This document shows positions 41,431-62,376 of a stretch of 64,000 nucleotides of DNA, in pieces (positions within the stretch are counted from its first letter, which is position 1; every line of letters begins with the position of its first letter). A program made the translations under genes and the position numbers. A model generated the notes under the pieces. The model saw only the letters and a program-made list of their open reading frames with translations, was not told the origin of the DNA and searched no databases. Source of the DNA: Alphaproteobacteria bacterium MarineAlpha5_Bin5 (GTDB lineage Bacteria; Pseudomonadota; Alphaproteobacteria; HIMB59; GCA-002718135); the NCBI GenBank assembly GCA_002938205.1, contig PTKZ01000001.1:62001-126000 (forward strand), written 5' to 3'.

Positions 41431-43290
41431 TTAAGAAGCTTCTTTTTTCTTTTCTTCATCTATAATATGATAAACAGGCTTTTTTTCCATTGTAAATTTA
41501 CCTGTTTCTGGATCACGTGTTGATACTGTTAAGCAATGCCAATTTTCATCATCTAATTTCATATGATCACCTCTATAATAATATCCTGGCCATCGGGTTT
41601 CTTCTCTAAATAAAGTATGTTCGGTTACACATTGAGAAGTAATGGCACGGTGTTTTAATTCCCATGCACGCATAAGTTGATGATAATCTTCAGCTCCAAC
41701 GTGTTCTAAATCTTCTTGCAACCAATCTAATAATTCCAACCCTCTTTTGAGTGTATTTTCATTGGTCATATAATTAAAAGAAATACCACCAACATATTCA
41801 TCCATTATTTTTTGCAGACGTTGCAATCCTTGAATCGGCAAAATATAACTTGGGGAAACTGTTCCAGCTGTAATTTCATTTCTTCCAACCTTATAATTTT
41901 CAAGAGGTTTGTAAATAATCTCTCTGAAGTTTTCACACTGTTTATCTGTTACCTGTATACCTTCTGCTTTTTGATCTTGAATATATTTAACAGCTGCTTT
42001 TGCTGCTAGGCGACCCTCTGTAAAAGATCCAGATGAAAATTTATGTGCACTTCCTCCAACTGTATCACCTGCTCCAAAAAGACCATCAACGGTAGTCATT
42101 CTATTGTAACCCCAAAAGTATTCAGGAGGTGAAAGATCTTCAGGTCCACTTACCCAAGCTCCCGAGCAGGTAGCGTGCGAACCCATCACGTAAGGTTCCG
42201 AAGTAGTTAATTCAGGATTTTGATATTTTGGATCTATGTTCTGAGAAGCCCATACAACTGCTTGTCCAACGGTCATCCCTAAAAAATTTTCCCATCCAAT
42301 AGTTTCTAAGTGTGGGTCTTGAAATGCTTCTTTTGTAACCATATGAATCGGACCACCACCAGCGATAACTTCTTGAATGAACGCATGGTTTCGCAAACAA
42401 GTGGGTGTAGGATGATGATCTATATATTCTCCCACTAATTTTTTTGTTTGGTCGTACCATTTTTTTTCGTAATTCTCTCCGTTGGCATTTTGTGTATATG
42501 TTTTTAAATGTAAAAAATATGCACCAACAGGTCCATAACCATCTTTAAATCTGCATAAAACAATACGGTTTTCCATTTGTGTCATTTTAGCTCCAACTGC
42601 AATTGGTAAAGCATACGCCGATCCATTACTCCAAGGTGCGTACCATGTACGACCCATACCTTCACCAACTGCTCTTGGTTTAAATATATGAGAAGCACCA
42701 CCTGCTGCTACTATGACTGTTTTTGCTCTAAAGACATGATAATTTCCTGTGCGCATATTAAATCCAACAGCACCACCAACCCTATTATCTTTGCCCTCAT
42801 CCATTAAGAGATGAGTAATCATAATTCGGTTATAAATTTTATCAGCCGATTTTTTTGCTGCTTCTGCAACGATAGGCTTATAGCTTTCTCCATGGATCAT
42901 TATTTGCCATTTACCTTCTCTCTGATATCTGCCTGTTTCTTTATTACGCATCATAGGAAGACCCCATTCATCAAACATATGAACAGTAGAATCAACATGG
43001 CGAGCCATATCATAGCCTAGATCTTCACGAACAAGTCCCATTAAATCATTACGTGCGTACCGAACATGATCTTCTGGTTGATTTTCATCCCACTGCATTC
43101 CCATATAACAATTAATTGCATATAAACCTTGTGCAACGGCACCACTTCTATCGATATTAGCTTTTTCTACGCAAATTATTTTTAAATCTCTTCCCCAATG
43201 CCTAGCTTCAAATGCAGCTCCTGTTCCTGCCATACCTCCGCCAACAACTAAGATATCGCAATTTTCGTAAACTGTTTTATTTTTTGGCAT
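41431..43290 (-). CDS. aprA: Adenylylsulfate reductase alpha subunit
   Basis: ILVVGGGMAGTGAAFEARHWG...VEKANIDRSGAVAQGLYAINCYMG; DNRVGGAVGFNMRTG. Confidence 0.94.
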   Translation of the reverse strand: MPKNKTVYENCDILVVGGGMAGTGAAFEARHWGRDLKIICVEKANIDRSGAVAQGLYAINCYMGMQWDENQPEDHVRYARNDLMGLVREDLGYDMARHVDSTVHMFDEWGLPMMRNKETGRYQREGKWQIMIHGESYKPIVAEAAKKSADKIYNRIMITHLLMDEGKDNRVGGAVGFNMRTGNYHVFRAKTVIVAAGGASHIFKPRAVGEGMGRTWYAPWSNGSAYALPIAVGAKMTQMENRIVLCRFKDGYGPVGAYFLHLKTYTQNANGENYEKKWYDQTKKLVGEYIDHHPTPTCLRNHAFIQEVIAGGGPIHMVTKEAFQDPHLETIGWENFLGMTVGQAVVWASQNIDPKYQNPELTTSEPYVMGSHATCSGAWVSGPEDLSPPEYFWGYNRMTTVDGLFGAGDTVGGSAHKFSSGSFTEGRLAAKAAVKYIQDQKAEGIQVTDKQCENFREIIYKPLENYKVGRNEITAGTVSPSYILPIQGLQRLQKIMDEYVGGISFNYMTNENTLKRGLELLDWLQEDLEHVGAEDYHQLMRAWELKHRAITSQCVTEHTLFREETRWPGYYYRGDHMKLDDENWHCLTVSTRDPETGKFTMEKKPVYHIIDEEKKKEAS

Positions 43291-43760
43291 TAGTAATAAA
43301 CTCCTTTTTTGAAAGAGCTTTTACTTATTGTGGGTAATTCTTTATTAGTATTTAATCCTTTTGGTTCAGAATATAAAATTTGAGAATTAATTTCTGCCTG
43401 ATTAGGTTCATCCTCTTCAGCTAGTTTAGGAATATGTTTCCCCCATGGTTTTGTAGTTATTGGTGAAACAAAATTTTTCTCCGTTCCATTTCTAAATTTA
43501 ATTCGCCAAGATATTGTTCCCTTTTCTTCTTCACGAAGAACTCTTACACTATGCCCCATTGGAGCAAAGTCAGCATACCCTCTTGCATCAATAGCTTCGT
43601 TAGGACAAGCTTTCACACATGAATAGCATTCCCAGCACATATTCGGCTCAATATTAACAGCTCTTCTTGTAACAGGATCGATATGCATAATATCTGATGG
43701 ACATATATCAACACAATGACCACACCCATCACATTTCGTCATATATACAAACGTTGACAT
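43290..43760 (-). CDS. aprB: Adenylylsulfate reductase beta subunit
   Basis: CDGCGHCVDICPSDIMHIDP and CWECYSCVKACPNEAIDARGYADF, two 4Fe-4S motifs. Confidence 0.94.
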   Translation of the reverse strand: MSTFVYMTKCDGCGHCVDICPSDIMHIDPVTRRAVNIEPNMCWECYSCVKACPNEAIDARGYADFAPMGHSVRVLREEEKGTISWRIKFRNGTEKNFVSPITTKPWGKHIPKLAEEDEPNQAEINSQILYSEPKGLNTNKELPTISKSSFKKGVYY

Positions 43761-46797: not shown

Positions 46798-48120
46798 TCA
46801 GTTTTTCATTTTTTTTGCAGCTTTAGCATATTCTATATTTCTTCCACCATAGCGTCTTAGACGTATGTTGCATTGTTCAGCATGACCTAGAAATCCTTCT
46901 AAATGAGATAGTCTAGAACCATACTCACCAATTAATGTAGCAGCTTCATCTGTTAAAACTTTTTGATATGTATGCGTTTTGATGAATTTGCCCACCCATA
47001 ATCCTCCTGTGTATCGCCCAGCTTTTTTAGTGGGTAAGGTATGGTTTGTTCCAATAACTTTATCGCCATTTGCTACGTTAGTTCTTGGCCCAAGAAATAA
47101 TGCACCGTAAGATTTCATATGTTCTAAAAACCAATCATCTTTTTTAGTCATTACTTGCACATGCTCCGAGGCTATTTCATTTGCCTTATCAAGCATTTCT
47201 TCATACGAATCACAAAGTATAACTTCGCCATAATCTCTCCAACTTATACGTGCTGTTTCTTTAGTTGGTAAAATTTCAAGAATTCTTTCAATCTCTGAAA
47301 GTGTAGATACTGCTAAATTTTTTGAATTTGTAATTAGAACTGCTGGTGAATTATAACCATGTTCAGCCTGACCTAAAAGATCAGTAGCACATAATTCTCC
47401 ATCTACGGTATCATCCGCTATAACCATCGTTTCCGTTGGTCCAGCAAATAAATCAATTCCCACTTTTCCAAATAATTGCCTTTTAGCTTCCGCAACATAG
47501 GCGTTACCAGGACCAACAAGCATATCAACAGGTTTGATTGTTTCAGTTCCGATTGCCATTGCTCCTATGCCTTGCATACCTCCTAATACATATATTTCGT
47601 GGGCACCGCCTAAATACATAGCTGCAATAACCGCTGGATTAGGTTTTCCTTGAAAGGGAGAAGTGGTCGCTGCTATTCGAGGGACACCGGCAACAGATGC
47701 TGTTACTACAGACATGTGCGCAGATGCTACCATAGGAAATTTTCCTGCAGGAACATAACAGCCAACTGATTGCACTGGAATGTTTTTGTGCCCTAATATA
47801 ACTCCTGACAATGTTTCAACTTCTAATTCTTTTAATGTTGAGAGCTGGGCTTCAGCAAATTGTCTAATTTGCTTTTGAGCAAATTTGATATCTTCAATGT
47901 CATCTTCTGATACTTGACTGATTAAATTTTGAATCTCAGAATTTGATAACTTAAAACTCTTTGGCGAATAGTTATCAAATTTTTCTGATAATTCTCTTAT
48001 ACATAGATCACCTCTTTGCTCAATTTTTTTTAATGTTTCTTCTACAATATTTTTAACTTTGTTATCTTCAGTAGATCTTTCTTGTTCATCAATTCCTTTT
48101 TTCAAATATTGAATAGCCAT
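46798..48120 (-). CDS. Histidinol dehydrogenase-family protein, HpsN-like
   Basis: [47 protein letters not shown]; no other his genes nearby; accessory context. Confidence 0.75.
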
Positions 48121-48123
48121 AAG

Positions 48124-49212
48124 TTATTTTTTATGGATTAATTTAAATATATCAATGTCTATCTGATTAAGTATGTGTGCAATATCAATAGGTACCCAAT
48201 TTTCTCTTATTAATCCTTCATGATGCAAATAAAAATCCATAACACGCATTGTAATTTTTTTATTTGTTGGTTCATAACCCAACCAATCTTTACTTCCATA
48301 AATACATTGAATGCTATGCCACCCTCCAGTCATAGAATAATTACCATCGCCTATTTCAATATAATGACCAATTTTCCAATAATCTCTTTCTTTGAAAGTT
48401 AATCTAAAGGGTAATTGGTGATGATCAACAAACCCAGTTAAACCTCTTGCAGTTCCGATCCCACATGGACCATACCACATCATTTTTGGGTGCCAAAAAT
48501 CTTTTTGTGGATGATTAAGTAATTTTTCTCTTATCGTTTCTTTGGAATTTGATTCTTGTTCTGGTTTGATATTTAAGCTTCGCTGCATTTTTAAAGCTTG
48601 CTCCAGTGAGGCAGTTGATAAGTTTACATCATGATTTACATGCCTAGTCCCATCTCCAGTTATTGGTCCAGGCCACATTTCTTCAATACCTAAAGAAGGT
48701 TTAATTGGCCAATATCCAGCTTGACGAATAAAGTCTACAGTGTCGATTAAGATATAAGATTTAAATATTTTATTATCTTTTAACTGATGTGCTTCACATA
48801 CACGTAAATGAACTGTTTTATGAGTAGCTGGTACATTTAGCCACGGGTTACTAAAGGTACCTGTTAGATGACTGATGCAAGAAACAAATACTTTATCTTG
48901 AAAACTCCCACCAATTATTAAATTATCTCTTCTTTCTAAATCAGGAAAAGAGGTCTTCAAAGGTATCCATAATAATGTATATATTGAGTCAAGGCCTGTA
49001 ATCTCATTTATAGGATGAAATCCATTTAACTCAGCTTCGTTATGGTAAGCTTTATCTAAATTTTGTTTCAATGAATCAAAGGAAGATTCAGCAATATCCT
49101 TAAGTAGCTTTCTTACATATTTTTTATTTTTAGTATTATCTTCAGGGTCTAAATTTGCAGACTGAAGATTTGAATCACTCCTTATACCTGTATTAAAATT
49201 TTTAATTTTCAT
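48124..49212 (-). CDS. SnoaL/NTF2-like protein, two domains (A)
   Basis: DFWHPKMMWYGPCGIGTARGLTGFVDHHQLPFRLTF SnoaL-like; N-terminal half also NTF2-like. Confidence 0.7.
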   Translation of the reverse strand: MKIKNFNTGIRSDSNLQSANLDPEDNTKNKKYVRKLLKDIAESSFDSLKQNLDKAYHNEAELNGFHPINEITGLDSIYTLLWIPLKTSFPDLERRDNLIIGGSFQDKVFVSCISHLTGTFSNPWLNVPATHKTVHLRVCEAHQLKDNKIFKSYILIDTVDFIRQAGYWPIKPSLGIEEMWPGPITGDGTRHVNHDVNLSTASLEQALKMQRSLNIKPEQESNSKETIREKLLNHPQKDFWHPKMMWYGPCGIGTARGLTGFVDHHQLPFRLTFKERDYWKIGHYIEIGDGNYSMTGGWHSIQCIYGSKDWLGYEPTNKKITMRVMDFYLHHEGLIRENWVPIDIAHILNQIDIDIFKLIHKK

Positions 49213-49266
49213 AAATTATTTTTTCACTTACTTACTCACAATTATTAAAAATTAACTAATTGATTT

Positions 49267-49282
49267 ATTCAATAATTTGAAT
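49267..49282. promoter_or_regulatory. Candidate LacI-family operator ATTCA-N6-TGAAT (site 1)
   Basis: ATTCAATAATTTGAAT in the divergent region between 49212(-) and 49321(+); a second, N7 copy at 49286-49302. Confidence 0.65.
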
Positions 49283-49320
49283 AATATTCAATAAAAATGA
49301 ATAATTTATAGTATACATAT

Positions 49321-50289
49321 ATGTCAAATAATATTCTATCACGTCTTGCAAAATTTAATGAACTTATTCCCAGCACAGTTCCTTTTGTTGAAGGAAAATT
49401 AAAAGGACATCAGGATAGAAAAAATTATTCAATTATTGGACCTGGAGTAAGTGAAGATTCTAAGCAAAATGTAAAGTTAGCCGAATCTCACGGATTTAAT
49501 ATCGGAGCTGTGAGCGCTGCACCCATGAATGGATCAGGACTGCATAGTCACACTACAGCTGAAGTTTTTATGATACACTCTGGTTCTTGGCGTTTTTATT
49601 GGGGAGTTAACGGAGAAGAAGGTGAGGTAATTCTTAATACAGGGGATGTGGCTTCATTCCCTACCAATATGTTTAGAGGATTTCAGAATGTTAGTGATGA
49701 AGAAGCTCTTATGTTCGTTGCACTAGGTGAAGATGATCCAGGTGTTATTACTTGGACTCCAAAATTATTAAAAGAAGCAAATGATTCTGGAATGTTATTA
49801 ATGGAAGATAGCTCATTGGTTGATCTTACTAAACAAAATATACCTGAAGGTAAGTTCGTAACAAAACCTCTTGAAGAAAAAGAGTTGCAAAGCTTTGACC
49901 ATTACACTTCTGATGAAATTGAAAAATTTGTTATTCGTTATGAAGATAATAAAAATTATGTTCATGATGAACATAATAATTCAAATTCAATAATTAATTA
50001 TTTAGATTCATTTGAAATACATGGAAAAAAAATTGATCCCCAAATTCCCCATAACACAGGTTTTGGATTATCCTTATTAAAAGGTTCTTCTGCTCATATT
50101 CATTCCTATTCTATTGACTCATCTGAATTTTATAATTGTTTAAATGGTCAGTGGGAGGTTACATGTGATGATGAGAAAGTTATTCTTGATCCACATGATA
50201 GTTTTTCTGCTCCAAAAAAATCAACAAGAAGTATAAAACAAATAAGTAATGATAAGGGCAGTTTATTTATTATTAGAAAATCAAAGTAA
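49321..50289 (+). CDS. Cupin-domain protein (bicupin)
   Basis: NGSGLHSHTTAEVFMIHSGSWRFYWG...GDVASFPTNMFRGFQNV; second degenerate cupin AHIHSYSIDSSEFYNCLNGQWEV. Confidence 0.82.
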   Translation: MSNNILSRLAKFNELIPSTVPFVEGKLKGHQDRKNYSIIGPGVSEDSKQNVKLAESHGFNIGAVSAAPMNGSGLHSHTTAEVFMIHSGSWRFYWGVNGEEGEVILNTGDVASFPTNMFRGFQNVSDEEALMFVALGEDDPGVITWTPKLLKEANDSGMLLMEDSSLVDLTKQNIPEGKFVTKPLEEKELQSFDHYTSDEIEKFVIRYEDNKNYVHDEHNNSNSIINYLDSFEIHGKKIDPQIPHNTGFGLSLLKGSSAHIHSYSIDSSEFYNCLNGQWEVTCDDEKVILDPHDSFSAPKKSTRSIKQISNDKGSLFIIRKSK

Positions 50290-50300
50290 TTTAAAAATAT

Positions 50301-51290
50301 ATGAAAGGTTTTGATAGTCAATTTAAAGATTTACCTGATTTTATTTTAAAAATTACATATCAAATTTGGGAAAATAATGATGTTGAGTCTATTAGAAAAT
50401 TCTATGCAGATGTACCAGATGTAAGTCTACCCACCCCAACACGATCTCCATCAGGTGTTATATATGGAGCAGAGCCTGTAATTGAGAGTACTCTAGCGAG
50501 TAAAAAATTATTTCCAGATCGTACTTTGTTAGGTGAAGATGTTATTTGGATTGGGAATGATGATGAAGGATATTTTTCTTCACACCGTATTTTGTCTACA
50601 GCTACTCATAATAAAGATGGTTTGTATGGAAAGGCTACAGGTAAAAAATTGCTGTACAGAGGTATTGCTGATTGCGCTTGTAAAAATAATCAAGTTTATG
50701 ATGAGTGGCTGGTAAGGGATCAAGGAGCAATAGTAAGACAGATAGGGATTGAACCCAAACAATTTGCATACAATTTAATTATTGAAGAAGGAGGAATAGA
50801 TAAAGCTGAGCAAGCATTTAATAATAAAACCCCGATTAAATCTATTTATACTTCCCCAAAGTTACCTGAATCAAATACTGGAAAAAATTATGGTAACATT
50901 TTAAAAAGAATTATGAATGGTGAAAAAAATGTAGTTGAAGAAAATTATGATAGAGCAATTCAGCAATATCAACCAGGCGCTTTCATTAAGTATGGAAAAG
51001 AAGAAGTACTAAATTTTTGGAGCAGTCTTAAATCTTCATTTCCTAATTCTGAATTTAAGATTGAACATATAAGTTTTACAGAAAACATTAATAATCCAAA
51101 AAAAGCAGCAATTCGCTGGTCTCTATCTGGTAAACATAGTGGCGCAGGTATTTTTGGAGCGCCATCAGAGGCTGATGTCTATGTCATGGGTATTAATCAT
51201 GCAGAGTTTGGTCCTCGTGGTATTAAAAATGAATGGGTACTTTATGATGAAACAATGATTTGGAAACAGATTTTAATGCAAACAGGTTAA
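50301..51290 (+). CDS. SnoaL/NTF2-like protein, two domains (B)
   Basis: MKGFDSQFKDLPDFILKITYQIWENNDVESI; paralogous to 53535..54671. Confidence 0.72.
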   Translation: MKGFDSQFKDLPDFILKITYQIWENNDVESIRKFYADVPDVSLPTPTRSPSGVIYGAEPVIESTLASKKLFPDRTLLGEDVIWIGNDDEGYFSSHRILSTATHNKDGLYGKATGKKLLYRGIADCACKNNQVYDEWLVRDQGAIVRQIGIEPKQFAYNLIIEEGGIDKAEQAFNNKTPIKSIYTSPKLPESNTGKNYGNILKRIMNGEKNVVEENYDRAIQQYQPGAFIKYGKEEVLNFWSSLKSSFPNSEFKIEHISFTENINNPKKAAIRWSLSGKHSGAGIFGAPSEADVYVMGINHAEFGPRGIKNEWVLYDETMIWKQILMQTG

Positions 51291-51294
51291 ATTT

Positions 51295-52422
51295 ATGACA
51301 TCTATTTTAACAACGCATGTAGGAAGTTTACCTCGCTCTAAAGAATTAGCAGAATTATTGTTTAAAAAAGATAAAGGCGATTCATTTGATAATAATTTAT
51401 TTCAAGATGTAGTACAAAAAAATGTAGAGCAGGTAGTTAATAAACAATTAGATGTTGGTATAGATTTTGTTAGTGATGGAGAAATGAGTAAAATAAGCTA
51501 TGCTACTTATGTGAAAGATCGACTACATGGTTTTTCTGGGGAAAGTGAAAGAAAGGCACCTGCAGATTTAGATGATTATCCAAACTATAAAGAAAAAATA
51601 GCAAAAAGTGGTGACACTCCCACATATACACGTCCATGTTGTACAAGTAATTTGGAGGTGAAGGATGATAATTCTCTAAATAAAGATATTGAAAATTTTA
51701 GCAAAGCTTTACAAAAATCAAATTATGATAGAGGTTTTATGAACGCTGCATCTCCAGGAGTAATCTCAGTATTTATGCCAAATAAATTTTATAAGAATGA
51801 TGATGAATATTTGGAAAAATTATCTTTCCTTATGTCAAAAGAATATAAAGCAATAACAAAAGCTAATATTCAATTACAATTAGATTGTCCTGACTTAGCT
51901 CTAGCAAGACATATGAGTTATAAATCTTTATCAGATGAAGATTTTTTAAAAAGAGCAGAAAAACAAATTGAATATTTGAATAATTCATTAGTTGATGTAC
52001 CAAACGATATGATACGCATGCATATATGTTGGGGTAATTATGAAGGTCCTCACACTCATGATATTAGTTTAGAAAAAATACTTCCAATAATTTTAAAAGC
52101 AAAAGTGAAATATTTTTTAATTGAATCTTCAAATCCTAGACATTCGCATGAATGGAAAATATTTAAAGATATTAAACTTCCTAAAGATAAAATTCTTGTC
52201 CCTGGCTTAATTGACTCTACGTCAAATTTTATAGAACATCCAGAAGTAGTAGCTGATAGATTGATTCAATTTTCAACAGTGATTCCAAAAGAACAATTAA
52301 TGGCAGGAACAGATTGTGGTTTTAGTACATTTGCTGGCTTTGGGAAAATAGATGAAAATATATGTTATGAGAAACTCCGTGCATTAGTTGAGGGCACTAA
52401 ACTCGCTTCAAAAGTTATCTAA
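51295..52422 (+). CDS. Cobalamin-independent methionine synthase (MetE C-terminal)-like protein
   Basis: LTTHVGSLPRS, DVGIDFVSDGEMSK, HICWGNYEGPHTHDI, AGTDCGFSTFAGFG zinc-site region. Confidence 0.85.
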   Translation: MTSILTTHVGSLPRSKELAELLFKKDKGDSFDNNLFQDVVQKNVEQVVNKQLDVGIDFVSDGEMSKISYATYVKDRLHGFSGESERKAPADLDDYPNYKEKIAKSGDTPTYTRPCCTSNLEVKDDNSLNKDIENFSKALQKSNYDRGFMNAASPGVISVFMPNKFYKNDDEYLEKLSFLMSKEYKAITKANIQLQLDCPDLALARHMSYKSLSDEDFLKRAEKQIEYLNNSLVDVPNDMIRMHICWGNYEGPHTHDISLEKILPIILKAKVKYFLIESSNPRHSHEWKIFKDIKLPKDKILVPGLIDSTSNFIEHPEVVADRLIQFSTVIPKEQLMAGTDCGFSTFAGFGKIDENICYEKLRALVEGTKLASKVI

Positions 52423-53427
52423 TTACTGATTTAAAAATTTTGCTCTTTCTAAAAGATCCACTCCTAGTTTTTTTAAAAAATGTAAATGATCTATAAAGAT
52501 CCAATTTTCAGCTAATTTATCTCCGTCTCTTCGATATAAGTCTACAACTCTCATTTCTGATTCAATATAACTAGTATTTGTTAAACCCAAATATTCTCCT
52601 TTTGGTTTCATAATTAAATTTGGCCACCCAAACCATCCACCTAGATCGTCTTCAGAACTACTAAGTATGTGTCCATTGAATCGCACAAACTCTAAACCAT
52701 CTTGAAATGGTTTAGTGTGACCTTTTTGATAACCTTCAATAGTATAAGAAGCTCCTATACCTCCTGGTCCCCACCAAATCATATCATTATGCCAATCTAA
52801 TTCTAATTCTTTTTTATAAGATTGCATTTTAGATCCTTTAACAAGTCGATCCCGCATTCTGTGAATCAAATCTAATGTTTTTTGACTTTCATTTTGATTA
52901 GAAATATCAAATTTTAAACCTTTATGGTTCATTGGTCCTGGCGTAACACAAACAAGACCTGTAGATTCAGGAATCACAGAAAGACCTAGTTGCTGCATAA
53001 AATTCATTACATCTAAAAAAATAGCTCCTTCAGTAATTTTGTTATTTTCAACTTTATAAAATTCTGCAAATCTTAACAAAATAGATTTATAATTAGGTTT
53101 AAGGCCTAAAAATGATTTATTAAAAACACCCATGAAATGACCCATACTTGAGATCCATTTACCTTCATTTTTATCAAGTGAATTTATCCCCGCATAAAAT
53201 ATATCTAATCGACGTTGTATAGGTGAAAATGAATCTTTAATTGGTTTCCAAAGATTATTTGCAACAAAATCTGCACTACCTAGTTCGTTGAAAGGATGTG
53301 TACACTTCATACAAAAATCCTCTGATGCATATTTAGAGATAACTTCTGATAAAGACTCAATGTTACAACTATCTATTTCATTGAAATAATCTAATACTAA
53401 TTTTTTTTCTGCTTGAAGATCTGTCAT
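52423..53427 (-). CDS. SnoaL/NTF2-like protein, two domains (C)
   Basis: LDWHNDMIWWGPGGIGASYTIEGYQKGHTKPFQDGL. Confidence 0.75.
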   Translation of the reverse strand: MTDLQAEKKLVLDYFNEIDSCNIESLSEVISKYASEDFCMKCTHPFNELGSADFVANNLWKPIKDSFSPIQRRLDIFYAGINSLDKNEGKWISSMGHFMGVFNKSFLGLKPNYKSILLRFAEFYKVENNKITEGAIFLDVMNFMQQLGLSVIPESTGLVCVTPGPMNHKGLKFDISNQNESQKTLDLIHRMRDRLVKGSKMQSYKKELELDWHNDMIWWGPGGIGASYTIEGYQKGHTKPFQDGLEFVRFNGHILSSSEDDLGGWFGWPNLIMKPKGEYLGLTNTSYIESEMRVVDLYRRDGDKLAENWIFIDHLHFLKKLGVDLLERAKFLNQ

Positions 53428-53464
53428 TTCATTTTGATTATATTAATAAGCCAAAAAAGACAAT

Positions 53465-53480
53465 ATTCATTTTTTTGAAT
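53465..53480. promoter_or_regulatory. Candidate LacI-family operator ATTCA-N6-TGAAT (site 2)
   Basis: ATTCATTTTTTTGAAT in the divergent region between 53427(-) and 53535(+). Confidence 0.65.
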
Positions 53481-53534
53481 AAAATTTCATTGCTTTGAAA
53501 TATTTTTAAATGTATCTCAATATAAATACAAATT

Positions 53535-54671
53535 ATGAAAATTAAAAAAATTAAAGATAAAAGACCAAAAGCTCTCCAAGATCATCATATGCCTAAGAGT
53601 TATGATATTTCATTAAAAGCATATGGAGGTGGAGGAACAGAAAAATCTTTAAATCCAAAACCAAAAAAACTTAAACATCAATCAATGAAGGGATTTGAAG
53701 CCCAATACAAAAATATCATAGATTATATAGTGAGGATAACGTATCAAATATGGGAAGAAAAAAATATTGGGTATATCTATGATACATACAGTAAAGATTG
53801 CACAGTTTGGGATGAATTTGGTTTGCAATCTGGATCTGAAAAAATAGTAGCTGATACAGTACACACAAATAATGCCTTTCCAGATATTAGATTATTTGCA
53901 GATGAAGTTATTTGGGCAGGAGATGAAAATTCAAGTTTTCATACATCGCACAGAACAATTATTACTGGCACAAATACTGGATTTAGCAAATTTTCCAAAC
54001 CCACTGGTAAAAAAGTAAGATTATTTTGTATTGCAAATTGTGTAGCAAAAAATAATGAAATTTATTATGAAAATGTTGTGTACGATACTGCAGGTTTAAT
54101 TAAACAGCTTGGCTTGGATCTAAATCAAATTGCCAAACAACTTGTCGATGAAGGAATTGCTGGACCATATGCCCCTCATTTTAAAAAATCTAAGCCAAAA
54201 AGAAATATTACTAAATTAAAGCCAATAAGTTTTGATATTCCTGATAAAATTAAAAATGTAAGACAATTTGTTCATGCAGTTTATGATACAATTTGGAATA
54301 GAAGAAATTTTTCTGCAATAAACAAAGCTTACTCGAACAACGTTGAATTTGAAGGTTCAACTGGTCGTAAATTTAAAGGTATAAAACAACTAAGAAGTTT
54401 TATCATTTCTATGATTTCTGCTTTTCCAGATCTGGCATTAAGTATTGAAGATTTATATTGGATGGGAAATTTACATGATGGTTATTTAGTATCAGTACGT
54501 TGGGGTGCGGTTGGAACTCACAAAGGAAATAGCGTTTATGGACTGCCAACTAATAGAGAATGTTATCTTTGGGGAATTACTCAATGGGAAATAAAAAATA
54601 ATAAGATAATTAGAGAGTGGACTGGCTTTAATGAGCTAGCGATATTAATGCAACTGTTAGGAAATCAATAA
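53535..54671 (+). CDS. SnoaL/NTF2-like protein, two domains with N-terminal extension (D)
   Basis: MKGFEAQYKNIIDYIVRITYQIWEEKNIGYI and second domain NVRQFVHAVYDTIWNRRNFSAI. Confidence 0.75.
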   Translation: MKIKKIKDKRPKALQDHHMPKSYDISLKAYGGGGTEKSLNPKPKKLKHQSMKGFEAQYKNIIDYIVRITYQIWEEKNIGYIYDTYSKDCTVWDEFGLQSGSEKIVADTVHTNNAFPDIRLFADEVIWAGDENSSFHTSHRTIITGTNTGFSKFSKPTGKKVRLFCIANCVAKNNEIYYENVVYDTAGLIKQLGLDLNQIAKQLVDEGIAGPYAPHFKKSKPKRNITKLKPISFDIPDKIKNVRQFVHAVYDTIWNRRNFSAINKAYSNNVEFEGSTGRKFKGIKQLRSFIISMISAFPDLALSIEDLYWMGNLHDGYLVSVRWGAVGTHKGNSVYGLPTNRECYLWGITQWEIKNNKIIREWTGFNELAILMQLLGNQ

Positions 54672-55091
54672 ATGAGTGCTGAATTTAACAAAAAATTAGT
54701 TGAGGATATGTATATTGCTCTTAATACAAAAAATTTAGATGCACACGATAAATATTGGCATCAAGATATGATTTGGCATGGACCTCCAGGATTTGGAGAT
54801 ATACATGGTTTAGAAAATTTTAAAAAGCAAGTAATGAAACCTTTTTATGCAGCTTTCCCAGATTATTATGTAGAAAATGATATTGTTGTGGCAGATGAAA
54901 ATTGGGCAAGTGCTACAGGTTATTTAACAGGTACACACAATGGTACATATTTAGATATTGAGCCAACTGGGAAACCCATCAAGATGCAATTTTCTGATTT
55001 TTGGTTAATTAAAGAAGGTAAATTTTCTGAAAATTTTGTCATGGTTGATAATTATTCAGTTTTACAACAAATGGGAATCAAATTTAAATAA
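54672..55091 (+). CDS. SnoaL-like protein, single domain (E)
   Basis: KYWHQDMIWHGPPGFGDIHGLENFKKQVMKPFYAAFPDYYV. Confidence 0.82.
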   Translation: MSAEFNKKLVEDMYIALNTKNLDAHDKYWHQDMIWHGPPGFGDIHGLENFKKQVMKPFYAAFPDYYVENDIVVADENWASATGYLTGTHNGTYLDIEPTGKPIKMQFSDFWLIKEGKFSENFVMVDNYSVLQQMGIKFK

Positions 55092-55095
55092 ATTA

Positions 55096-56100
55096 TTATT
55101 TAGTAGTTTTTCTTTTTATAAATTTTCCTTCTATCAAATGATTCGAAGGTTCAAAATCAGGGTCTTGAATATATTCATCAATTAATTGAGTTACTAGTTT
55201 TGACATTTGTCTAATAGGTTGTTTTATCGTGCTTAATTTATATGATTCCCAATTTGCCATCAACATATCATCAAACCCTATAACTTCAATTTGACTTGGA
55301 ATTTTATATTTTGTTTTATCTTTAATAAAATCCATACATCCAAAAGCCATTGTGTCATCTGCACAAAAGATAGCTGAAATATTTTTATTTTGTAAAATTT
55401 TTTCTGCAGCTTGATAACCTCCTTCATAGGTGAAATTACCTTTTTCAGAAATTAATTTAATATCTTTAAAATTTTTAATATAGTTTTTAAAACCTTTACA
55501 TCTTTCTTCACTTACAAAAGTTCCTTTTGGTCCTTCTACTATGCCTATGTTTTTATGTTTATTTTGATTTAAATGTTGAGCAACTAGTTCTCCACCATTT
55601 CGATGATTACAGCCAACTGAACTAGTGGTTGGTATTGTAAAATTTCGGTTGTAGGCAATAACTTGAATTTTTTGTTCATTACAACTCGCTACAAATTTAT
55701 CTGTTGGTTTTGAAGCAGTTATAATAGCTATCAATTTATCTTTAAGGTGTGGTCTTATTAGTTTTTCATCTAACTCTTCACTATCATCAGTTGTAATAAG
55801 TAATATTCGATAATTTTTATTTCTAAGAGCTTCATGTAATTCTGTTAACACTTCGGGATAATATCGATTTGTAATATACGGTAAGATAACTCCAACTAAT
55901 CCACTATCAATTGAAGTTGTTGAATTATGCAATAAATTTTGAGCTTTATAACCTAGTTTTTTTGCAGCTTCAATAACACGCAGTTTAGTTCTATTTGAGA
56001 TACTTGCCCCCTTTGTAAAACACCTTGAAACTGCAGATTGCGAAACTCCAGCCAAACTAGCTACATCCTGAGAAGTAGCCATTTTTATGTTCTTTTTCAT
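55096..56100 (-). CDS. LacI-family transcriptional regulator
   Basis: MATSQDVASLAGVSQSAVSRCFTKGASISNRTKLRVIEAAKKLGY; periplasmic-binding-like C-terminus; start MKKNIKMATSQ at 56100, ORF track extends to 56136. Confidence 0.94.
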   Translation of the reverse strand: MKKNIKMATSQDVASLAGVSQSAVSRCFTKGASISNRTKLRVIEAAKKLGYKAQNLLHNSTTSIDSGLVGVILPYITNRYYPEVLTELHEALRNKNYRILLITTDDSEELDEKLIRPHLKDKLIAIITASKPTDKFVASCNEQKIQVIAYNRNFTIPTTSSVGCNHRNGGELVAQHLNQNKHKNIGIVEGPKGTFVSEERCKGFKNYIKNFKDIKLISEKGNFTYEGGYQAAEKILQNKNISAIFCADDTMAFGCMDFIKDKTKYKIPSQIEVIGFDDMLMANWESYKLSTIKQPIRQMSKLVTQLIDEYIQDPDFEPSNHLIEGKFIKRKTTK

Positions 56101-56130
56101 TTTGACTCCATATATTATCCCCATCAAAAT

Positions 56131-56146
56131 ATTCAAATACTTGAAT
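56131..56146. promoter_or_regulatory. Candidate LacI-family operator ATTCA-N6-TGAAT (site 3)
   Basis: ATTCAAATACTTGAAT between lacI-type gene start (56100, -) and ABC SBP start (56228, +). Confidence 0.68.
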
Positions 56147-56227
56147 AATTATTCATTCTATTGCAATATGAACTATTAATTGAAAAAGTGCATTTTGCAC
56201 GAAAAAAATATTTTAGGGGGGTATAAA

Positions 56228-57460
56228 ATGAAAAATATTTTTTACGCACTATTATTTTCACTTGTAAGTACTGGAATATTTGCTGCTGGTCCTTGTAATG
56301 TTTCAGGTGGAAAAATAAATATTCTTGCTAATGAGTTTACTACATACAGAATTTTTATGGATGAGGTAAAAAAATGTGCGGGATCAGAAGCAGATTTCAA
56401 TGTTACACACTCTGTTGATCATAACAAATTGCAAGTAGCAGCTTTATCAGCAAATCCTGCAGAGTTTTCAGCAAAACTTGTTACTAACGGCTCAATTACA
56501 ACACTAATGAATGACGGACTAATTCGTCCATTAGATGATTTAGTTGGAAAATACGGTGGTGATCTCATTAATGATAATCAAAAAATTACTATTGATGGAA
56601 AAATTTATGCTGTAGCTTTCATGGCTAATGCTCAACATCTTTGGTACAGAGAAAGTATTTTAAATGAGCTTGGTATTGCTGTTCCATCGACATATGAGGA
56701 AGTTATTGAGGCTTCAAAAAAAATTCAAGCATCTGGAAAAATGGCTAATCCATATGGAGCTGCTTTTCAAGCAGGCTGGAATTTAGGTCAAGAATTTGTT
56801 AATATGTATTTAGGGCATGGAGGAGAGTTTTTTAAAGCTGGATCAGCTGAACTAAATATTAATAATGATCAAGGTATTGCAACTTTGAATATGCTTAAAA
56901 GGCTTACTGAAGTAGCTAATCCAGATTTCTTAACACAAGATACTAATGCTGTTAAAGAAGAATGGGAATCAGGAAACTTAGCTTTAATGCACATTTGGAA
57001 CTCAGGTGCAGCATCTATATTAGATGATGAGGGTGATCAAATGATTAAAGCTGATACTAGACTGGCCCCTTCTCCTTCAGTTGCAGGTGGAAGCAAACCA
57101 GCAACAACACTTTGGTGGGATGGATTTGGAATTGCCACAAATACTTCGGATGAAGAAGCTGAAGCATCTTTTAGAGCTTTATTAGGTGCTGCTACATCAA
57201 CAGAAATGGCTAATAATAATCCAAATGCAACTATTTGGTTAATTAAAGGTTATTCACCTGGTGATACTGCTGGTCCTGTTGTAGATGCTGCAAACAGAGG
57301 TGCTACTCCTTATCCAAGCTTACCACATATGAGCTTGTTACATGGTGCATTGTCTACTGAGATAGTTGAATTTTTACAAGGAAATGAATCTGCTCAAAAA
57401 GCACTAGATGATGTAGAAGCTGCATATATTGCAAAAGCTGAAGAACAAGGTTTTCTATAA
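56228..57460 (+). CDS. Carbohydrate-type ABC transporter substrate-binding protein
   Basis: Signal peptide MKNIFYALLFSLVSTGIFAA; AFMANAQHLWYRESILNELGIAVPSTYEEVIEASKKI; GGGGGT upstream of ATG 56228, ORF track starts at 56180. Confidence 0.92.
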   Translation: MKNIFYALLFSLVSTGIFAAGPCNVSGGKINILANEFTTYRIFMDEVKKCAGSEADFNVTHSVDHNKLQVAALSANPAEFSAKLVTNGSITTLMNDGLIRPLDDLVGKYGGDLINDNQKITIDGKIYAVAFMANAQHLWYRESILNELGIAVPSTYEEVIEASKKIQASGKMANPYGAAFQAGWNLGQEFVNMYLGHGGEFFKAGSAELNINNDQGIATLNMLKRLTEVANPDFLTQDTNAVKEEWESGNLALMHIWNSGAASILDDEGDQMIKADTRLAPSPSVAGGSKPATTLWWDGFGIATNTSDEEAEASFRALLGAATSTEMANNNPNATIWLIKGYSPGDTAGPVVDAANRGATPYPSLPHMSLLHGALSTEIVEFLQGNESAQKALDDVEAAYIAKAEEQGFL

Positions 57461-57540: not shown

Positions 57541-58569
57541 ATGCCTCATAAAACTTTCTTTTGGTTTTTTTTCCCTAGTGGTCTGGCAATGTTACTTTTT
57601 ATTGGGTTGCCCATAATATCAAGCTTCTTTCAATCTCTACATATCGAGAATGAACAAATTTTAATGGAAGTAGAAAATTGTGATGTATTTGGATGTAAAA
57701 CAGAAGTCAGGGTAGATCTGGATGCAACCAAAAAAATAGAAGAAGAAAACCCACTTGGAAGATTTAATGGATTTGGAACCTATTCTGATAGAAATCATCT
57801 TGCCTTTGATGAAATTAATGACGCCTGGAAAGTTTCTTCATCCTATAATGAATTCTTTGACATAGTTTTAAATTTACCATTTTATAAAGCGCTCTTATTT
57901 ACAATAACTTTTTGTTTTACTGTAACTCCACCTGTAATTGTTTTAGGATTTATTGTAGCTTTAAGTATAAACACAATATCTAAATCTATTAAAGGTCCAA
58001 CTATATTTGGAACAATTTTACCAATGATTGTTACGCCCTTAATTGGATCATTAGTTTTGTTTTGGATGATAGATGCTAAAGGCATATTAGGAGCAACCAT
58101 TCAAAATATTTTTGAAGATCCAAATTTATCTTTAAAATCTTCAAGTGAATTAACATGGATAACTCTAATTATTTATGGGATATGGCATAACACCCCTTTT
58201 GCTTTTGTTGTTTTTTATGCAGCATTGCAAACAGTACCTCTTGATCCACTTGAGGCAGCTATAATAGATGGGGCATCAAGATATCAAAGGGTTAGATACA
58301 TTGTAATACCTCATTTATATCCTGTGGCTACTTTCATAATGTTAATTTGTTTAATGGATAATTTTCGAGTTTTTGAACCTATTATTGGTTTTAAGGCAGA
58401 GGGTGCAGCTCAATCACTTTCATGGTTGATATATTCTGATTTGAGAAATGAAAGTATTATGTTGTTTGGATCCGCAGGAGCAACCTCAATGCTTACAATT
58501 ATAGGAGTTGGTTTATTGTTAACCCCGGTTTTAATTAGAACTTGGAAAGAATTTAAAACAGAGAGATAA
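57541..58569 (+). CDS. Sugar ABC transporter permease (MalF/UgpA-like)
   Basis: EAAIIDGASRYQRVRYIVIPHLYPV EAA motif; multiple TM helices. Confidence 0.92.
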   Translation: MPHKTFFWFFFPSGLAMLLFIGLPIISSFFQSLHIENEQILMEVENCDVFGCKTEVRVDLDATKKIEEENPLGRFNGFGTYSDRNHLAFDEINDAWKVSSSYNEFFDIVLNLPFYKALLFTITFCFTVTPPVIVLGFIVALSINTISKSIKGPTIFGTILPMIVTPLIGSLVLFWMIDAKGILGATIQNIFEDPNLSLKSSSELTWITLIIYGIWHNTPFAFVVFYAALQTVPLDPLEAAIIDGASRYQRVRYIVIPHLYPVATFIMLICLMDNFRVFEPIIGFKAEGAAQSLSWLIYSDLRNESIMLFGSAGATSMLTIIGVGLLLTPVLIRTWKEFKTER

Positions 58570-58570
58570 A

Positions 58571-59452
58571 ATGGAGTCTAAAATAAACAAATATTCTAAA
58601 CAATTAATAATTTTAAATAGTATTTTTATTATTTTTTGGTTAGTGATTTCTGTTTTTCCTTTCATTTGGACTTTTTGGGGCTCTTTCAAAGTTAAAGCTG
58701 ATTTTTTCTCAAGAGCTGATTGGATGTATGCAGTGAATGGTTTCCATACATTTATAGAAACAGGTTCAACATCTACTCTAATTGCATATATTGACTCTTG
58801 GACTGAAGGAGAATTTTGGAGAGCAGCAAAGAATACTATAATTATTACTGTATCGGTTGTTACAATTTCATTGTTTTTAGGAACTTTAGGAGCATATGCT
58901 CTTTCAAGGTCTACTTATAAATATACTTTTTGGATTTTAATTGCTGCACTAATTTTTAGAGCAATGCCTCATATTACGCTTGTTTCTGGTTATCTTTTCC
59001 CTTTTTTTCAACTAAACATTTGGGGAATACTTCCAACTACAATTATTGTTTTGGTAGCAATTAACCAACCATTTACTCTATGGTTGTTATATTCATTTTT
59101 CAAAACTGTGCCTAAAGAACTTGATGAAAGTGCTCTAATAGATGGATGTTCATATTTTCAAGCTTTTCGATATGTTATTATGCCCGTTATGTGGCCTGGT
59201 GTCATTACTGCTGGGCTTTTTAGTTTAATGTTAGCATACAATGATTTTACGGTAACATCACTCTTACTTAATCAACAAAATTATACTATGGTTCCAAAGA
59301 TAAATGCATATTTAGGAACTGTTGAGTATGGTGGTAATTATATGTGGGCAGTTGCTTGTGTAGTTTCTGCAACAGCTCCACTATTTATGATAATAATGTT
59401 TTTTCAACGTCAACTTATTAGTGGCTTAACTACTGGAGCAGTTAAAGGTTAG
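58571..59452 (+). CDS. Sugar ABC transporter permease (MalG/UgpE-like)
   Basis: ESALIDGCSYFQAFRYVIMPVMWPGVITAGLFS EAA-type motif. Confidence 0.92.
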   Translation: MESKINKYSKQLIILNSIFIIFWLVISVFPFIWTFWGSFKVKADFFSRADWMYAVNGFHTFIETGSTSTLIAYIDSWTEGEFWRAAKNTIIITVSVVTISLFLGTLGAYALSRSTYKYTFWILIAALIFRAMPHITLVSGYLFPFFQLNIWGILPTTIIVLVAINQPFTLWLLYSFFKTVPKELDESALIDGCSYFQAFRYVIMPVMWPGVITAGLFSLMLAYNDFTVTSLLLNQQNYTMVPKINAYLGTVEYGGNYMWAVACVVSATAPLFMIIMFFQRQLISGLTTGAVKG

Positions 59453-61473: not shown

Positions 61474-62376
61474 TTAATTTATAATTGCTCTATCAACTTG
61501 AATAGGTTTTTGAGTTCCTTTTTTCTTATAGGCTTCACGATAAGTAATGTATACAACCGAAATAAATATTACTATCCCGCCAATCCACGTCCAAATATCA
61601 GGTTGTTCTGCAAAGAGATATAGACCTATCAAGGAAGCCCAAATTAATTTAGTAAATTGAAGCGGCATAACAAAAGTGGTATCAGATAGTTTAAACGCTT
61701 GAGCTAAGCACCAATGAGACAATAGACCAGCTGCTCCCATGAAGCCAAAAATAAATAATTGATTAAGAGTAATGGTTTCCCAAAAAAATAAAGAAAGTAT
61801 AAAAAACACCGGTGTCATAAATAATAAGTGATAGAAGATGATAGTGAGACTTGAGTCAGTCGCAGATAATTTTTTCACAAAAATTAAAACGAAGGAAAAG
61901 CTAAATGATGCAGCTAGCATTAATAATGTACCAAACTCAAATGGCAAATAACCAGGGCGAATAATAATAATAATTCCAATAAAACCTAAAATAAGTGCTG
62001 CTGTACGGTGAAAGCGAATTACTTCACCTAAGACGATTACAGCTAAAATAGTTGTAAATAGAGGAGTAGTAAATCCAAGAGCTGTTGCTTTTTCAAAATA
62101 CATTATACCAATAGCCGTAAACCAACAAATCATTGAAAAGATATTTATTGTAGCTCTTATTAGTTGAAGTTTAAAATTATTTGACTTTAGAGCTTTGAAG
62201 TTATTTTTTGCAACAAAAGGCATTATTAATATCAATCCCATTAAACAACGATAAAAACATATTATAATGGGATGTAAATCGTCAGATAAAAGTTTTACTC
62301 CTGCTCCCATGAAAGAGCCAAATAAAGTTGCTCCAATAGCAAGTAAAGTTACATAAAGAAATTTATTTCTTATCAC
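61474..62376 (-). CDS. EamA/DMT-family transporter
   Basis: About ten TM helices; FYRCLMGLILIMPFVAK, TAIGIMYFEKATALGFTTPLFTTILAVIVLGE. Confidence 0.88.
   Translation of the reverse strand: MIRNKFLYVTLLAIGATLFGSFMGAGVKLLSDDLHPIIICFYRCLMGLILIMPFVAKNNFKALKSNNFKLQLIRATINIFSMICWFTAIGIMYFEKATALGFTTPLFTTILAVIVLGEVIRFHRTAALILGFIGIIIIIRPGYLPFEFGTLLMLAASFSFSFVLIFVKKLSATDSSLTIIFYHLLFMTPVFFILSLFFWETITLNQLFIFGFMGAAGLLSHWCLAQAFKLSDTTFVMPLQFTKLIWASLIGLYLFAEQPDIWTWIGGIVIFISVVYITYREAYKKKGTQKPIQVDRAIIN

Follow-up and report, generated by a model that had tools for sequence, protein, structure and literature searches.

The window analysed, 64,000 nt of contig PTKZ01000001.1 of MarineAlpha5_Bin5 (positions 62,001 to 126,000), contains a cluster of genes encoding SnoaL-type, cupin and MetE-like proteins, together with a LacI-family regulator and a sugar-type ABC importer. 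The genes and candidate regulatory sites are as follows.

46798..48120, minus strand: HisD-superfamily dehydrogenase, closest to HpsN, downstream of snoA; predicted target
48124..49212, minus strand: snoA, two SnoaL-type domains; predicted target
49260..49287, plus strand: presumed core promoter of P1, TTGATT-N16-TAATAT, with dyad 1 inside it
49267..49302, plus strand: P1 array (snoA/cupin), ATTCA-N6-TGAAT-N3-ATTCA-N7-TGAAT, score 20/20
49321..50289, plus strand: cupin protein; predicted target
50301..51290, plus strand: snoB, SnoaL-type; predicted target
51295..52422, plus strand: MetE-like (Meth_synt_2) protein; predicted target
52423..53427, minus strand: snoC, SnoaL-type; predicted target
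53457..53485, plus strand: possible core promoter of P2, AAGACA-N17-TAAAAT, with dyad 1 inside it, from a consensus scan
53465..53500, plus strand: P2 array (snoC/snoD), ATTCA-N6-TGAAT-N4-TTTCA-N6-TGAAA, score 18/20
53535..54671, plus strand: snoD, SnoaL-type; predicted target
54672..55091, plus strand: snoE, SnoaL-type; predicted target
55096..56100, minus strand: LacI-family regulator, 334 aa (Pfam, NCBIfam LacI-type models, PDB relatives)
55903..55944, minus strand: degenerate hinge segment of the regulator, residues 53-66, AQNLLHNSTTSIDS; 0/14 positions invariant, 1.53 bits
55945..56079, minus strand: HTH of the regulator, residues 8-52, with GVSQSAVSR; 36/45 positions invariant, 0.13 bits among orthologues
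56131..56166, plus strand: P3 array (lacI/binding-protein gene), ATTCA-N6-TGAAT-N4-ATTCA-N6-TGCAA, score 19/20
56228..57460, plus strand: sugar-type ABC substrate-binding protein; predicted target
57541..59452, plus strand: two ABC permeases; predicted targets

Between 48124 and 55091 five SnoaL-type proteins are encoded beside the cupin and the MetE-like protein; four of them are long (329-378 aa) and have more than one SnoaL-like region. The adenylyl-sulfate reductase genes aprA and aprB (41431-43760) lie near the cluster.

A sequence-only reading of this region had reported the inverted repeat ATTCA-N6-TGAAT in all three divergent promoters of the cluster. These sites lie exactly where it placed them, and the 64-kb window has no other exact match. 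Their excess over chance was confirmed: dinucleotide-shuffled windows contain 0.49 exact dyads on average, and none of 100 shuffles reaches three. On the other hand, the dyad with one mismatch occurs at chance level in the window (16 versus 11.9 expected), and the suggested genome scan, carried out here with pattern and profile searches, found ten bare dyads in 1.58 Mb, about the chance prediction. Thus the dyad alone does not mark the regulon, and it was rejected as such a marker.

Each dyad is the left half of a 36-bp array, ATTCA-N6-TGAAT-N3/4-WTTCA-N6/7-TGMAW. The array consists of a pair of ATKCA-N6-TGMAT dyads spaced by about 20 bp, and its four half-sites start at 0, 11, 20 and 31 (the third at 19 in P1). 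The second dyads of P2 and P3 are slightly degenerate and lie 20 bp downstream of the first. The tandem double dyad replaces the single 16-bp palindrome as the candidate functional unit; the N7 site at 49286-49302, previously listed as a variant, does exist but is the second dyad of the P1 array. A profile trained on P3 arrays alone, in a held-out test, recovered P3, but P1 and P2 stayed below significance, and therefore we scored arrays by matches summed over the four half-sites (maximum 20). This score was defined after the arrays had been seen; the comparisons of conservation and of loci lacking lacI drew on other sequences. Only P1, P2 and P3 score at least 18 in the window, the next best place scoring 17, and shuffles yield 0.04 windows at this level.

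The LacI orthologue (66-92% identity) and the syntenic cluster are present in other marine bacteria of the order HIMB59. One named record among these relatives is AG-337-I02 (L188); the genus of this name has been placed in the AEGEAN-169 group of HIMB59 (PMC8692485). A contig labelled Euryarchaeota archaeon ARS96 (L175) carries this alphaproteobacterial LacI gene (70% identity) and is probably misbinned.

Footprinting in relatives with the LacI orthologue, proposed earlier as a check, shows that the arrays are retained in orthologous promoters at 18-20/20. In the comparison set of 20 lacI-containing loci, each of about 20 kb, P1 scores 20/20 throughout, P3 scores 19-20/20 in 20/20, and P2 scores 18-20/20 in 14/14 loci possessing snoC and snoD; no further arrays scoring at least 18 were found elsewhere in these loci. 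All 77 further lacI upstream regions of a second collection, whose strains are partly shared with the first set, score 19 or 20, and they comprise 22 different sequences. Across orthologous promoters half-site identity is 0.94-0.99, while spacers and flanks drift (at P3, half-sites 0.94, spacers 0.66, flanks 0.59). The N6 spacing of dyad 1 is invariant; the inner spacing and dyad 2 differ by 1 bp between P1 and P2/P3.

At P1, dyad 1 fills the spacer between the -35 and -10 hexamers, and the -10 hexamer lies between the two dyads. The P2 hexamers have the same register relative to the dyads; the count from the consensus scan is not above that in shuffles, so taken alone this prediction is weak. 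The P1 hexamers TTGATT-N16-TAATAT are kept in 17/21 lacI-containing loci (the other four have TATTAT as the -10 box) and in 20/20 loci without lacI, where the half-sites inside and behind them are lost. Thus the promoter is separable from the operator.

Since the sites and the regulator gene share a locus, we sought loci with the targets but without the regulator. In 81 genomes, many of the genomes examined being incomplete single-cell assemblies, a pattern search found the array in 37/37 genomes with lacI, some of them represented only by contig-edge fragments of the gene, and in 1/44 without it (G017, where the contig ends at the expected start of lacI). Three genomes of the same genus (G006, G015, G017) have the cupin-promoter array and no lacI; all their contigs end before the lacI position. 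Twenty genomes of a sister family retain the cupin gene with divergent snoA. Seventeen of these loci can be read across: the gene order is the same up to the binding-protein gene, but no lacI stands between the latter and snoE. This family also has an additional gene, of about 190 aa, between snoB and metE (L321:9609-10181). The P1 array is absent from all 20 loci, and the promoter scores (P1 13-16, P2 13-14, P3 11-13) equal the background. A genome of the same family that does have lacI (G078) has arrays scoring 20, 20 and 19. Partial remnants at P2 promoters of the lacI-less loci, ATATTCATTT...ATTGCTTTGAAT, suggest that the arrays were lost from these loci rather than never present. These loci all belong to one clade and may amount to a single event. 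Lacking lacI and all three operators and keeping the P1 hexamers, they provide a clean natural control.

The regulator has the domain composition that defines the LacI family, namely an HTH (PF00356, 6e-11) followed by a periplasmic-binding-protein-like domain (PF13407, 4e-24; PF00532, 5e-22), and its effector domain is of the sugar type; a hinge helix of the NAxARSL type, whose Ala and Leu are conserved, is common in the family and not required for membership, and is missing here. The hinge segment is the most variable part of the orthologues outside the N-terminal tip, and they carry sequences unrelated to AQNLLHNSTTSIDS at this place. Distant homologues with the GVSQSAVSR helix mostly have a canonical hinge of the PNxxARxL type. 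Structure prediction left the hinge unstructured, at low confidence, in the regulator and in a canonical-hinge control alike.

In 82% of the LacI family the hinge has a leucine, which inserts at a CG in the centre of the operator (PMC2978694). This CG is present in 1173 of 1251 even-palindrome motifs of the family (PMC4052901). None of the dyads 1 listed here has CG at its centre, and thus the arrays depart from the typical LacI operator. The joint lack of the hinge motif and the central CG is mutually consistent, as these are the two partners of one contact. Nothing consistent was found when the same half-site with a CG centre was sought upstream of canonical-hinge GVSQSAVSR homologues. In a 6.3-Mb genome, a perfect ATTCATGTAATTGAAT (L201:1254) lies upstream of the gene for a distant LacI homologue that has a canonical hinge and the helix SISAVSR. 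Both the HTH and the half-sites are nearly invariant, and hence residue-by-base covariation cannot be demonstrated.

The PurR operator, ACGCA-N6-TGCGT, has a 16-bp geometry with half-sites 11 bp apart. The array dyads share this PurR/LacI geometry, whereas the PurR site has a central CG and is a single dyad. Operators of the family are taken to be even palindromes of 16-22 bp near the regulator gene, and a 16-bp dyad lies upstream of lacI in all orthologues. As in described local regulons of LacI-family proteins (PMC4052901, PMC2978694), the regulator gene lies within the cluster, sites are found in its own and neighbouring promoters, and the even 16-bp palindrome is common to both; the differences are the lack of the central CG, the tandem arrangement of the dyads and the degenerate hinge of the regulator. 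The best known comparable exception is CytR of gammaproteobacteria, a LacI-family protein with loose half-site spacing (PMC3454398). Its published half-sites are of the TGCAA/TTGCA type, to which TTGCAAT in the arrays is similar. However, CytR sites lie between CRP sites at variable spacing (PMC3454398), whereas the array spacing is nearly fixed. No literature specific to tandem LacI operators or to the SnoaL/cupin/MetE-like cluster was found.

In three lacI-containing relatives (G029, G044, G004; loci L225, L227, L228) a four-half-site array was observed on a different contig, in a distal divergent promoter between another ABC importer, with a binding protein of 474 aa, and a pair of SDR-GMC oxidoreductase genes. 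Thus the regulon is not purely local. No such distal member was found in the genome to which the window belongs. In the latter, a three-half-site partial array is situated just upstream of a gene encoding an 802-aa sarcosine-oxidase/GcvT-like protein (L226:1958-1988, G000:C14); no close orthologue of this gene for footprinting was found.

The three arrays very probably have the 334-aa LacI protein as their cognate regulator. Taken as a whole, the best explanation, to which we assign a probability of about 0.85, is that the arrays are LacI operators, each binding two dimers, with repression relieved by an effector. Here binding, repression, the two dimers and the effector are what we infer from the array structure, its conservation and its absence together with lacI. 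That the arrays arose by chance or reflect AT-rich promoter sequence is barely credible: the bare dyad in the genome and the one-mismatch dyad in the window are indeed at chance level, but four-half-site arrays are far above it, half-sites are kept while spacers drift, and loci without lacI retain the promoter hexamers but not the half-sites.

A rather improbable possibility is that the arrays are bound by another regulator, ArgR-like, of the MetR/LysR type or other, and LacI only travels with the cluster. ARG boxes of ArgR are tandem pairs of TGAAT/ATTCA half-sites; the same tandem half-sites occur in the arrays in a different register, and the inner TGAAT-N4-ATTCA is similar to the ARG box of E. 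coli. At P1, TGAA-N5-TTCA looks like a MetR box, and the MetE-like gene lies within the cluster. However, ArgR was rejected as the binder, as PF01316 is absent from the genome and was found by the same search in nine control genomes. MetR was rejected as well: the N5 spacing occurs at P1 only, and the single LysR-type gene is on another contig (C55), beside a ribulose-phosphate-epimerase-like gene. Moreover, in loci that lack only lacI, the arrays are gone as well. Somewhat more room should be left for LacI binding as a single dimer, at dyad 1 or at the inner TGAAT-N4-ATTCA pair, the other half-sites being part of the promoter or serving a second factor. The invariant spacing of dyad 1 against the 1-bp variation of the inner spacing and dyad 2, and the overlap of the -10 hexamer with the inner gap, would fit this; on the other hand, all four half-sites are conserved at the three promoters and at the distal ones, and all decay together without lacI. 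Finally, LacI is unlikely to be an activator. CytR-type proteins do work jointly with other factors (PMC3454398), but dyad 1 of P1, between conserved -35 and -10 hexamers, is in a repressor position.

Most likely LacI acts as a repressor, bound over the core promoter: repression by occlusion is favoured by the position of dyad 1 within the spacer at P1 and in the same register at P2. The 20-bp repeat suggests that two LacI dimers would occupy neighbouring positions on the same face of the DNA. At P1, and probably at P2, bound LacI would block RNA polymerase, dyad 1 being in the spacer and the -10 hexamer between the dyads. Since the hinge segment is degenerate, LacI may read the major groove only, with no leucine at a central CG, and the second dimer would add affinity. 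LacI would be released by an effector, probably the compound that the adjacent sugar-type ABC transporter takes up or a product of that compound. This would induce cupin-snoB-metE, snoA-hisD, snoC, snoD-snoE, the importer genes and lacI. Autoregulation, proposed earlier, is supported by the P3 array, which is conserved upstream of lacI and whose presence follows that of lacI. The earlier proposal of one LacI regulon is likewise supported, as orthologous promoters retain the arrays, whose occurrence tracks lacI rather than the target genes.

The dehydrogenase stays in the regulon as a predicted target. Of the solved structures, sulfopropanediol 3-dehydrogenase (HpsN) is its best relative, with 373 bits and E 2e-110; histidinol dehydrogenase reaches 258 bits. 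This likeness is a lead to an organosulfonate or polyol substrate. SmoF is among the solved relatives of the ABC binding protein. Organosulfonate as the substrate of the cluster is weakly indicated by the HpsN-like dehydrogenase, the SmoF relative and aprBA nearby; in the relatives, no aprA was found within the 20-kb loci.

LacI-family proteins are the textbook model of DNA recognition, and to our knowledge insertion of the hinge leucine at the central CG is regarded as nearly universal among them. We tentatively suggest that this lineage may have replaced hinge-helix/central-CG recognition with cooperative binding of two dimers to straight DNA, the -10 hexamer lying between the dyads, although we would not yet favour this over other histories. 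An orthologous group with a near-invariant HTH, a drifting hinge and a CG-less double operator would show how such a rule is replaced. With the predicted operators, the SnoaL/cupin/MetE-like cluster of these abundant uncultured marine bacteria gains a defined regulon and a handle on its substrate.
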